From: Candidatus Mediterraneibacter intestinipullorum
GTDB taxonomy: Bacteria; Bacillota; Clostridia; Lachnospirales; Lachnospiraceae
Length of the DNA: 64,000 nucleotides
Reading direction: 5' to 3'
NCBI GenBank assembly: GCA_019118665.1
Contig: DWYM01000045.1
Span: 1-64,000, forward strand
Shown in pieces: positions 17,568 through 37,711 of the stretch (positions are counted from its first letter, which is position 1; the number at the start of each line of letters is the position of its first letter). The translations under genes and the position numbers were made by a program. The notes under the pieces were generated by a model. That model saw only the letters and a program-made list of their open reading frames with translations. It had not been told where the DNA came from and did not search any database.

Positions 17568-19058
17568 GTGAAGATAAAAGATATCATAGACAGGTTAAGA
17601 AAAGGGGTGAAAGCAGGCATGGCTGCTGTAAAGGAGAGCAATTCCCTGACAGATACAAGGGTTGTGTACCTGATTGAAAAGTTCAAAACTTCCGGCCGGC
17701 GTGAGTTGATGCTTGAAGGAGAACGGTATTATCAGGTGGATAATGATATTAAGGACAGGCGGATTACGAAGAGTGTTAATGGAAAACGCGTGGAAGAAAG
17801 CTGGAGGGCAAATAATAAACTCGCCCATGCGACATATAAAAATCAGGTGGATGAGAAGATCGCTTACCTGCTGTCTAAGCCGGTTACATACAAGACCAGC
17901 GAAGGCGCTGGATCATCTTATGCGGATAAGATTAAAGATATACTCGGAAAGCATTTCCAGTACCAGCTGACTCAGCTTGGATATGAGGCATCAAACAAGG
18001 GGATTGGATGGCTTCAGGTGTACGTTGATGCAGAAGGAAACCTGAAAACAATGGTGATCCCGGCGGAACAGTGCATCCCGTACTGGAAAGACAAGACTCA
18101 CACTGAGCTTGATACAATGATCCGTGTCTATGACACGACGGTATGGGAATACAGTACGGAGAAAACGGTTACGAATGTTGAGGTGTGGACAGAAGACGGC
18201 GTGAACTTTTACCGGCTGGAAGGCAAACTTCTCATTTATGATTATGAAAGAAGTATGGATGCCGGCGGCCCTGTATCTCATTACAGAAACGGTGATGAAT
18301 GGCAGTCTTGGGGAATGGTACCGTTTATCCCGTTTAAGAATAATCAGATCGAGATGCCTGATATCAAATTCGTGAAGAGCCTTATTGATGGATACGATCA
18401 GGGCAGAAGCGAAGCGGCGAACTATGTGGAGGAGGTCAAGAACCTGATCTTCGTCCTAAAGGGATATGGGGGAGCAGATCTGGATGAGTTCATGCGTGAT
18501 ATCAATGAAGACCGCGCTATTAAGATCGATGATCCGGAAGAAGGCGGAGTTGATACGATTACACCGCAGATGGATATTACTGCACTGCGAGAGCATTACG
18601 AGCAGCTGAAACGCGATATCGCTGAAGCTGGACAGTCTGTGAATAAAGATCTTGATAAATTCGGCGCCGCTCCTTCCGGTGTTGCCCTGCGGTTTATGTA
18701 TTCAGGGCTGGATCTGAAGTGTAACCTGATGGAGACGGAGTTCAAGATGGGTTTTGAACGGCTTCTGTATTTTGTGGATCTGTATCTTCAGCTGACCGGA
18801 CAGGGCGACTTTGAGAAGACGGAGGTTGAGCTGGTGTTCAATCGTGATATGGCGGTTAATGAGTCTGAGCAGATTCAGAACTGTACGAACTCCCGCGGTA
18901 CAATTTCCGACAAAACGATCATTGCGCACCACCCATATGTTTCTGATGTAGAAGAGGAGATGAGACTTATTGAAGAACAAAAGCGGGCTGCAGGCCCGCC
19001 CTGGGACACCGTTCCACCCGTAAAGGATGGTGATGAAGATGGCGACGAAGAAGAATAG
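17568..19058 (+). CDS. Portal protein (SPP1 gp6-like)
   Basis: Position and family-typical sequence. Confidence 0.9.
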   Translation: MKIKDIIDRLRKGVKAGMAAVKESNSLTDTRVVYLIEKFKTSGRRELMLEGERYYQVDNDIKDRRITKSVNGKRVEESWRANNKLAHATYKNQVDEKIAYLLSKPVTYKTSEGAGSSYADKIKDILGKHFQYQLTQLGYEASNKGIGWLQVYVDAEGNLKTMVIPAEQCIPYWKDKTHTELDTMIRVYDTTVWEYSTEKTVTNVEVWTEDGVNFYRLEGKLLIYDYERSMDAGGPVSHYRNGDEWQSWGMVPFIPFKNNQIEMPDIKFVKSLIDGYDQGRSEAANYVEEVKNLIFVLKGYGGADLDEFMRDINEDRAIKIDDPEEGGVDTITPQMDITALREHYEQLKRDIAEAGQSVNKDLDKFGAAPSGVALRFMYSGLDLKCNLMETEFKMGFERLLYFVDLYLQLTGQGDFEKTEVELVFNRDMAVNESEQIQNCTNSRGTISDKTIIAHHPYVSDVEEEMRLIEEQKRAAGPPWDTVPPVKDGDEDGDEEE

Positions 19059-20325
19059 TATATACTGGGAAAAACGGATTGCTGCCGGCACATGGAAAAC
19101 TTATAATTCTCTGGAAGAAAAGAACCGGGAACTCCTGGAGTTCTATATAGATGCTAGTGAGCAGATTAAAAAAGAACTCTATCTGATCGCTGAGAAGTAC
19201 AGCAAAGATGGGGTTCTTTCTCTTTCCGATATGCATAAGCAGAACCGTCTGACGGATCTGAACCAAAAGTTTCAGGACATTATTGAGGATCTGGGGCATA
19301 AGACGGAGAAATCTGCAAAGAGGAATATGCAGGACGGTTTCAAGGCTGTGTATGAGAATACGGCGGTTTGTATGGGGGACGAAGACTTCTCCATGCCGAA
19401 TAAGAAGTTGATGGAAAAGCTTCTTCAGGAACCGTGGCGCGGGGACAGCTTTTCTGGTCGATTGTGGAAGAATCAGAAGAAACTGGCGGTCGGACTGAAT
19501 GATCTTCTTCTTACCGGACGGCAACAGGGCAAGACGGCAACGGAGATTGCGGTCAGCCTACATAACTTTATGGGTCAGGGGTTCAACGAGTGCCATAGGC
19601 TTGTACGGACCGAGACAATGCATTATCTGAATGATGCGACTATGCAGCGTTACAAGGATGCAGGCACCAAGTATGTGCAGATCTGGGCGGCTGAGGACGA
19701 GAGGACCTGCGTTGAATGCTCGAAGTACCACGGAAAGATATACTCTATTGATAAGTGTCCTCATGTTCCGTTCCATCCGAACTGCCGCTGTACAATTGTT
19801 CCGGTTACGGATGAAAAGATGATTGTGGAGTATGAGAAAAAGAACAACATCAAGAAAGATATTGAAAAGAAAGGCGATTCTGATATAATAAATCCATCAA
19901 TAGCGAAAGCAGGAACCGGCGTGACAGTTATACGTTCTCTTGGCAATATAAAAGAAGACATTATTACAAAGGAATTCGGGCAAATTCAAACTGATGAAAT
20001 CATTGTAACTGAAGAAAGGGAAAATCATATAAAAAAGAGACATCCGGAGGACTTTGAATTATTTAAAAAATATGGAGATAAAGCAGTTACTGATCCTGAT
20101 TATATTATTCGTGATGGCAAACATGAAGGAACCGTATTTATGGTAATGAAATTGCCTAATACGAATCTTAATGTTGTTGTAAGAATAGCCCTTGAATCAG
20201 ATGGGAGCGGCTTGAAAAATTCAGTTATGACATTTTATAGAATCCGAGAGCGCAACTTGAAAAAACTGATAGAAAAAAACACTGATCTCCTCGGAAAAGA
20301 CGCAGTGCTTTACAAAAAGGAATAA
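19039..20325 (+). CDS. MuF/SPP1 gp7-like minor head protein fused to C-terminal PBECR2-like nuclease domain
   Basis: RTETMHYLNDATMQRYKDAGTKYVQIWAAEDERTCVECSKYHG head domain; C-term VTEERENHIKKRHPEDFELF...DPDYIIRDGK. Confidence 0.8.
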   Translation: MATKKNSIYWEKRIAAGTWKTYNSLEEKNRELLEFYIDASEQIKKELYLIAEKYSKDGVLSLSDMHKQNRLTDLNQKFQDIIEDLGHKTEKSAKRNMQDGFKAVYENTAVCMGDEDFSMPNKKLMEKLLQEPWRGDSFSGRLWKNQKKLAVGLNDLLLTGRQQGKTATEIAVSLHNFMGQGFNECHRLVRTETMHYLNDATMQRYKDAGTKYVQIWAAEDERTCVECSKYHGKIYSIDKCPHVPFHPNCRCTIVPVTDEKMIVEYEKKNNIKKDIEKKGDSDIINPSIAKAGTGVTVIRSLGNIKEDIITKEFGQIQTDEIIVTEERENHIKKRHPEDFELFKKYGDKAVTDPDYIIRDGKHEGTVFMVMKLPNTNLNVVVRIALESDGSGLKNSVMTFYRIRERNLKKLIEKNTDLLGKDAVLYKKE

Positions 20326-20337
20326 AAGAGATATAAT
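20309..20337 (+). promoter_or_regulatory. Promoter TTTACA-N17-TATAAT
   Basis: Exact read of both boxes with 17-bp spacer, overlapping end of MuF ORF. Confidence 0.7.
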
Positions 20338-20343
20338 ATGCAT

Positions 20344-20498
20344 ACAATAAGTGGGGAGATATTTGAAGTAGAGATTGTGCTGCTACGCACCCTTGTGGTC
20401 AAAAGAAATGTGGGAAGGGGCACACCCACCAAATATCTTTCTACTTACTAAATAAAGACAATGCATACCACCAGTCAGAAATGGCAGGTGGTATTTTG
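20344..20498 (+). ncRNA. Putative structured phage ncRNA
   Basis: 18-bp closing stem 20348-20365/20430-20447 (3 G.U), hairpin GTGC-tgctac-GCAC, H-type pseudoknot CCTT/AAGG + GTGGG/CCCAC, terminator ATACCACC...GGTGGTATTTT. Confidence 0.6.
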
Positions 20499-20527
20499 TT
20501 GCCATATTTTTGTAGTAGAGGTATAAT
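20499..20527 (+). promoter_or_regulatory. Promoter TTGCCA-N17-TATAAT
   Basis: Direct read; upstream of lipoprotein. Confidence 0.65.
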
Positions 20528-20563: not shown

Positions 20564-21031
20564 ATGCTTATGAAAAAATTATTAAGTATGCTGTTATTGG
20601 TGAGTTTGTGCTGCGGGATGCTGTTGGGGTGTAGTGAAAAGAAACAAGATGTTACAAAGCTACCACACAACGATAAACTTAGCATATCTGACACGCAGGA
20701 CGTAATAATGAAAGAGGACAATGTCGTGGAAAACGACTCTGGTGGAACTTTGGGGTCTTATAAAAAAGATGAAAAAGTGAAGCTTGCAGATAAAGAATAT
20801 GTCGTTGGATATGAATTTGATACTGATGATGGAATAAAATGGGTTGCTTATGAATCCGATGAAGCCACTTTAGAGGAAGCGCAGGAGTATGTAGATTCTA
20901 TTTACGGGGAATTGGAAAAGACTGAATATGGTGAATATATTATTAATTGCGAAGGAAAAGTATGGATGGTTAGATGCTTAGAGAGCGCAAACCCAATAAT
21001 TTTTATAGCTAGGGATACTGCATCAGATTAA
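20564..21031 (+). CDS. Lipoprotein moron in head operon
   Basis: MKKLLSMLLLVSLCCGMLLGC|S lipobox; own promoter and terminator. Confidence 0.7.
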   Translation: MLMKKLLSMLLLVSLCCGMLLGCSEKKQDVTKLPHNDKLSISDTQDVIMKEDNVVENDSGGTLGSYKKDEKVKLADKEYVVGYEFDTDDGIKWVAYESDEATLEEAQEYVDSIYGELEKTEYGEYIINCEGKVWMVRCLESANPIIFIARDTASD

Positions 21032-37239: not shown

Positions 37240-37312
37240 GCCGATGTGGCTCAATTGGCAGAGCAGCTGATTTGTAATCAGCAGGTTATCGGTTCGAGTC
37301 CGATCATCGGCT
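37240..37312 (+). tRNA. tRNA-Thr (TGT)
   Basis: gccgatg/catcggc acceptor, anticodon loop tttgtaa, T-arm atcggttcgagtccgat. Confidence 0.95.
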
Positions 37313-37340
37313 TTGTTCCTTCGGGAGCAAACATTATTTT

Positions 37341-37414
37341 GGACCTTTAGCTCAGTTGGTTAGAGCAACCGGCTCATAACCGGTCGGTCCTGGGTTCGAG
37401 TCCCCGAAGGTCCA
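37341..37414 (+). tRNA. tRNA-Met (CAT)
   Basis: ggacctt/aaggtcc acceptor, ctcataa anticodon loop. Confidence 0.92.
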
Positions 37415-37511
37415 TTTATGCCGACTCCAGGTTCGCGCTGTATCCTTACCGCGCGCGTCGGCATGTATCGCACATGAGCGTCAAAAGGACAGACGCTGCG
37501 TGCCATCGCAA

Positions 37512-37585
37512 GGCCCAGTGGCTCAGTTGGTTAGAGCGCCGCCCTGTCACGGCGGAGGTCGAGAGTTCGAGTCTCTTCTGGGTCG
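37512..37585 (+). tRNA. tRNA-Asp (GTC)
   Basis: ggcccag/ctgggtc acceptor, ctgtcac anticodon loop. Confidence 0.94.
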
Positions 37586-37625
37586 TTTCCCCCATCAGAT
37601 GATGGGGGAGTACAATTTTATATCA

Positions 37626-37711
37626 GCCGCAGTGGCGGAACTGGCAGACGCCCGGGACTTAAAATCCCGTGGGTAGTGATACCCGTACCGGTTCGATTCC
37701 GGTCTGCGGCA
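37626..37711 (+). tRNA. tRNA-Leu (TAA)
   Basis: gccgcag/ctgcggc acceptor, long variable arm, cttaaaa anticodon loop. Confidence 0.94.

Follow-up and report, generated by a model that had tools for sequence, protein, structure and literature searches.

The type III toxin-antitoxin (TA) systems (ToxIN, CptIN and TenpIN/AbiQ) are carried by phages and plasmids and associate an endoribonuclease-like protein of the ToxN, CptN or TenpN family with an adjacent pseudoknotted RNA that has its own terminator. In these systems the RNA is a tandem-repeat array located upstream of the toxin gene, and the locus has a single promoter. ToxIN is the precedent for an RNA that acts as an antitoxin (PMC5086642). 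In the case of RCd22/AbiF (RF03085), from a prophage of C. difficile, a motif RNA found computationally was later shown to neutralise the neighbouring toxin (PMC12373285). The AbiF protein belongs to the Abi_2 family, its RNA lies upstream, and the structure of that RNA is unrelated to the one described below.

RNases of the colicin D, BrnT and RelE families are counteracted by antidotes that are proteins. Immunity to the MuF polymorphic toxins of temperate phages, in which a MuF head protein encoded in the DNA-packaging module bears a C-terminal nuclease domain, has likewise been assumed to be provided by a protein, the product of a small downstream ORF (PMC5576092). Among candidate nuclease domains of phages, the PBECR2 and PBECR3 families (PF18810 and PF18812) were predicted by the authors who described them to be toxic and to adopt an RNase fold (PMC5512222). 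On the RNA side, the skipping-rope family (RF02924) is typed as an sRNA in Rfam, and its role is unexplained in its description. Weinberg et al. (2017) are said to be the source of the family. A covarying pseudoknot is displayed for it in an Rfam figure (PMC7779021, Fig. 3).

The locus considered here brings these protein and RNA families together. The window, i.e., the whole stretch of 64,000 nucleotides that was analysed, contains a phage packaging and head module composed of genes for a terminase, a portal, a MuF protein, a scaffold and a major head protein. Within this module, on the forward strand, the MuF gene ends 32 nt upstream of a skipping-rope RNA. In our assessment, the skipping-rope RNA and the PBECR2/3 nuclease encoded upstream of it probably constitute a toxin/RNA-antitoxin (immunity) module. 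A full-text literature search, outside of which lay the publication from which the RNA family derives, retrieved no paper linking RF02924 to PBECR, and the identification of PBECR as the partner of the skipping-rope RNA appears to be new.

The MuF gene (positions 19027 to 20325, + strand) codes for a MuF head protein whose C-terminal part is a nuclease domain of the PBECR2 type, as assigned with Pfam, PHROGs, HMM searches and AF2. The MuF domain (PF04233) covers residues 159-257 and the PBECR2 domain residues 314-416, and the product matches head proteins in PHROGs. Against the latter domain PF18810 scored 25.8 bits in the Pfam search, under the cut-off of 27.1, and 28.3 bits, over the cut-off, in the genome search, while our own PBECR HMM, the seed of which included the window sequence, reached 112 bits (E 2e-33). 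The domain exhibits the His plus Ser/Thr active-site pattern, with His334 and Ser399/Thr402 as the predicted catalytic residues. The protein conforms to the pattern of the MuF polymorphic toxins, since it combines a MuF domain with a C-terminal predicted toxin domain and is encoded in the packaging module.

When the window domain (pLDDT 82) and a stand-alone PBECR3 protein (pLDDT 90) were modelled with AF2, both models found their best VIA-align matches among the toxin domains of colicin D, BrnT, RelE/HigB/YoeB and CdiA. The Z scores ranged from 4 to 7 (6.5 for colicin D, 6.0-7.0 for BrnT), and the RelE/HigB/CdiA families filled the top rows. A single Z below 8 can reflect a common arrangement, but RNase toxins of the BECR superfamily make up nearly the whole list, in agreement with the prediction of the PBECR authors; the predicted structures point to a fold like that of the colicin D, BrnT and RelE RNases. 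Foldseek returned no match for the PBECR models at E ≤ 0.001, and a PDB sequence search with the PBECR profile gave weak ribosomal-protein matches only. No PBECR entry was matched in PADLOC.

A predicted sigma-A-type promoter of the RNA (-35 TTTACA and -10 TATAAT, separated by 17 nt) occupies positions 20309 to 20337 (+ strand), where it scores 11/12 and overlaps the last codons of the MuF gene, exactly as an earlier sequence-only reading of this DNA had proposed. From the spacing of this promoter, from the terminator and from the folding energy, a transcript of ~154 nt is predicted (20344 to 20497, + strand). The intrinsic terminator that ends it (20465 to 20497, + strand) was also anticipated by that reading, and its hairpin is visible in both sequence and fold. 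The segment 20344-20500 folds at -54.1 kcal/mol, vs. a mean of -35.0 for shuffled sequences (z -5.2), and none of 200 shuffles equalled it. The same reading had been unable to assign the RNA to a named family, a statement now superseded, as the covariance-model search (cmscan, Rfam) aligned positions 20358 to 20437 (+ strand) with the full RF02924 model (positions 1-80/80) at 58.2 bits (E 2.4e-11), above the gathering threshold of 36.7. By this match the RNA gene of the window is a member of the skipping-rope family. The signals that flank it recur across the family: among 140 distinct homologous RNAs, 66% are preceded by a promoter-like site scoring at least 10/12 and 55% are followed, at no more than 100 nt, by a terminator, the corresponding values for dinucleotide shuffles being 3.8 and 2.9%.

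In the Rfam consensus, the skipping-rope RNA is laid out as an outer stem (P1), 2 nt, hairpin H1, 1 nt, hairpin H2, 4 nt, hairpin H3 (5 bp), 0 nt and the closing strand of P1, and the window RNA has the same P1/H1/H2/H3 layout. Its P1 pairs positions 20348 to 20365 with positions 20430 to 20447 (both + strand) in a continuous stem of 18 bp with exactly three G.U pairs, as first drawn, compared with 8 bp in Rfam's model, and the extension covaries. H1 (20368 to 20386, GUAG/CUAC) and H3 (20410 to 20429, GUGGG/CCCAC, 5 bp) flank H2 (20388 to 20405), a variable arm, all on the + strand. The structure was examined in 64 homologs aligned to the covariance model. Across 63 distinct homologs, 87.6% of the cells of the outer stem and H3 were paired vs. 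64% after shuffling, and covariation amounted to 0.63 vs. 0.21. Covariation is strong in H1, in H3 and in P1 including the extension; for the 18-bp stem this was the test that the sequence-only reading had named. Its H-type pseudoknot stood in one half, given that GTGGG (20410-20414) and CCCAC (20425-20429) are the two covarying strands of H3. The other half, a CCTT/AAGG arm, as well as an inner hairpin GTGC (20377-80)/GCAC (20387-90), found no such confirmation (covariation 0.078 vs. 0.066 shuffled; loop-swap value 2.51 vs. 2.63).

A different tertiary contact is supported instead by the sequence comparisons, in which UGUGC (20376-20380) in the loop of H1 would kiss GCACA (20420-20424) in the loop of H3 through 5 bp. 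Family-wide, the loops of H1 and H3 share 3.56 complementary bp within a sequence vs. 2.79 ± 0.11 with swapped partners, and the variants UGUGC/GCACA, CGUGGC/GCCACG, GCGUC/GACGC and GGCA/UGCC occur. With its promoter, terminator and covariation, the interpretation of this locus as an autonomous pseudoknotted ncRNA gene is therefore strongly supported at the sequence level, even though part of the fold initially drawn was wrong. In three loci (L083, L084 and L085) the RNA has kept its 3′ half, but its 5′ half is altered or replaced, which points to recombination or to decay of the RNA gene.

The neighbours of the RNA were inspected at 103 loci, mostly from Bacillota-type genomes (one phylum) with single cases elsewhere. 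At many of these loci a gene on the same strand stops 17-90 nt upstream of the RNA, and the gap between stop codon and P1 is exactly 32 nt in 12 of them, the encoded proteins ranging in length from 125 to 509 aa. A domain-specific HMM recognised a PBECR neighbour at 48 of the 103 loci (two of them convergent), leaving 55 RNAs without PBECR. As the seed of this HMM was drawn from the same RNA loci, the unbiased test is the reverse search from the protein side. The nuclease gene, which had initially been read as mere context for the RNA, is its conserved partner. Conversely, the location in a phage head operon, although correctly recognised in the window, is incidental, since other copies of the module follow lysis genes beside an att site or are carried by plasmids. 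The two convergent RNAs (L092 and L100), which come from a single genome, lie on the strand opposite the PBECR gene, ~30 nt from its stop codon, an arrangement that counts against the proposed module; at some loci (L067, L068, L152, L153, L304, L305 and L315) two diverged RF02924 RNAs lie close together.

Searches from the protein side, which were blind to the RNA, revealed a nearly obligate adjacency. In a sample of 398 genomes of the phylum, all 11 PBECR2 domains above the cut-off adjoin the RNA, as do 13 of 14 in 99 relatives, where the only exception (G035) is a frameshifted PBECR2 gene. When one genome per species was scanned, for one PBECR3 subgroup only since the wide PBECR alignment is too divergent for back-translation, the RNA was found at 57 of 61 loci of this subgroup, at a median distance of 54 nt from the point where the protein match ends. 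In three of the four misses the contig runs out no more than 130 nt from the match; the remaining one (L271) is interrupted by an in-frame stop and has Gln in place of the catalytic His33. Small PBECR3 proteins thus nearly always adjoin the RNA; no RNA was found with the giant polyvalent PBECR3 proteins (~690-2,360 aa). Where the flank was sufficient, no intact small PBECR above the cut-off lacked the RNA, the exception being a PBECR3-like frame of 191 aa (G412, L210) that lies close to the end of its contig. A sub-threshold PBECR gene (G468) is truncated at its C-terminus, and a 476-aa transposase-like ORF lies between this gene and the RNA. Both plasmid PBECR matches, in Treponema (Spirochaetota) and Brevibacillus, are accompanied by the RNA. 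The chance of such adjacency is ~6e-6 per locus, and the co-occurrence of RNA and PBECR at the genome level has a P of ~4e-16. RNA and protein also diverge together (Spearman 0.89, and 0.83 when only pairs with less than 60% protein identity are taken, vs. a maximum of 0.21 in Mantel permutations), although co-divergence of this kind could be expected from linkage alone.

Among the described systems, this pair recalls the type III TA systems, from which it differs in two respects. On the one hand, the nuclease is BECR/colicin-D/RelE-like by Pfam and by predicted fold and not a ToxN: Pfam names PBECR2/3 only, with no toxin of the ToxN, CptN or TenpN families, and PADLOC gave no AbiQ/ToxN match for the PBECR proteins. 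On the other hand, the RNA is located downstream, has its own promoter and is usually present in one copy. Because both toxin family and gene order depart from those of type III systems, the PBECR/RNA module is not a canonical type III TA system, and in the best-supported reading it would work alike. With respect to the MuF polymorphic toxins, the difference lies in the conserved downstream element, which is here an RNA and not the assumed ORF; indeed, no conserved protein gene was found downstream of the RNA. The BECR-type RNases of nearest predicted fold have protein antidotes, in contrast to the candidate RNA antidote of the PBECR module.

The mechanism that we envisage is as follows. The PBECR nuclease, which in the window forms the C-terminal part of a phage MuF head protein, would be an RNase toxin. 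The RNA would be made from its own promoter, separately from the nuclease gene, and would fold into a compact four-armed kissing-loop structure able to bind and block the nuclease. In a lysogen, the RNA would protect the cell from its own, leaked or injected toxin, and in MuF fusions it would thus act as an immunity factor. The distribution of the two partners has the pattern of an antitoxin because loci with an intact protein practically always have the RNA, and many loci with the RNA have no protein; antitoxins can indeed be orphan. A specific protein partner, and a nearly obligate one, can now be named for an RNA family for which we found no function. For the phage nucleases predicted from PBECR domains, MuF polymorphic toxins among them, the candidate antidote becomes an RNA in place of a protein. 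If this interpretation is correct, the logic of RNA antitoxins would no longer be confined to toxins of the ToxN and AbiF types and would take in the large BECR RNase fold, the survival of lysogens carrying PBECR toxins would be explained, and phages with orphan copies of the RNA would be predicted to carry anti-toxin decoys.

Near-obligate adjacency and co-divergence could also be produced by an RNA that serves the PBECR nuclease as an obligate cofactor, guide or activator in an RNP effector instead of inhibiting it. Decay of the toxin gene after loss of the RNA would fit a required cofactor as well, and the lone RNA-less gene of the species-wide scan is a pseudogene, as if the protein were useless without its RNA. 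Such a role is nonetheless unlikely in view of the RNAs themselves, about half of which stand without the protein, including in complete phages, and have kept a strong structure; the RNA also has a separate promoter. RNases of the most similar BECR folds cleave independently of RNA, which, to the extent that the predicted structures are a guide, argues in the same direction.

The orphan copies in phages and satellites and those that neighbour further genes of toxin or defence type, together with the sRNA type given by Rfam, would in turn agree with an independent trans-acting phage sRNA, operating by base-pairing or as a host-factor decoy, that merely travels with PBECR. This seems improbable to us, as the adjacency seen from the protein side (11/11, 13/14 and 57/61), the conserved 32-nt spacing and the co-divergence all speak against a mere fellow traveller. 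Very improbable is a cis-acting element of the toxin mRNA, which would act in 3′ processing or termination or limit toxin expression by transcription interference: in its favour, at most loci the RNA follows the stop codon at a distance of 17-90 nt and in the same orientation, yet this RNA is flanked by a promoter and a terminator of its own, occurs in convergent and in orphan copies, and adopts a compact kissing-loop fold.

Within the favoured toxin/RNA-antitoxin reading, a more specific version can be put forward tentatively and is rather doubtful as a whole. The skipping-rope RNA would mimic tRNA and confer immunity to the MuF-PBECR nucleases that virions deliver and to related stand-alone nucleases. 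The pairs would form a class of protein-RNA TA modules in which a structured decoy RNA, transcribed separately downstream, blocks a colicin-D-like RNase, and orphan copies in nuclease-less phages and satellites would be counter-measures. The layout of the RNA has the topology of the tRNA cloverleaf, and the contact between the loops of H1 and H3 resembles the tRNA elbow; the 2-nt joint is present in 87 and the 0-nt joint in 113 of 137 parsed sequences, in which the parser can misplace arms. The tRNA covariance model (RF00005) had no cmscan match at the RNA in the window, and mimicry is hypothesised from this likeness of layout.

In the viral search, two sequence patterns yielded true members of the RNA family. 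An initial pattern (AAAAGARATG...) was discarded, as none of its 25 loci matched the RNA model, and two subfamily patterns gave no family members. Orphan RNAs are found in the complete 103-kb Enterocloster phage CB457P2 (L145) and in the Streptococcus satellite phage Javan99 (L146), the records of which contain no PBECR3 match anywhere. These two RNAs could be antitoxin decoys against prophage-borne PBECR toxins, and orphan RNAs of this kind recall the toxI mimic of phage phiTE (PMC3475682). Orphan RNAs may also have another role. Six orphan copies of the RNA (L078, L095, L103, L151, L167 and L185) follow other genes of toxin or defence type at a distance of 0-35 nt; the products of these genes are ParE, an MNT nucleotidyltransferase, a weakly HicA-like protein, Abi_2, a weakly AbiQ/ToxN-like protein and an unassigned protein of 171 aa. 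ParE, Abi_2, MNT and the weak HicA and AbiQ/ToxN matches were rejected as alternative partners, each combination having been seen only once or twice.

Directly behind the RNA, the window encodes a lipoprotein-like protein of 155 aa (20564-21031, within the segment 20499-21070), whose ORF is preceded by a promoter-like site of its own (20499-20527, 11/12) and followed by a hairpin and T-tract. This ORF was rejected as an immunity gene: it has no Pfam or PHROGs match and is absent from a sister phage (L073) that keeps the MuF-PBECR gene and the RNA. This absence gives the ORF the appearance of an independent phage ‘moron’. Elsewhere in the window, a tRNA cluster (Thr, Met, Asp and Leu) occupies positions 37240-37711, with a tRNA-Glu gene set apart at 215-286.
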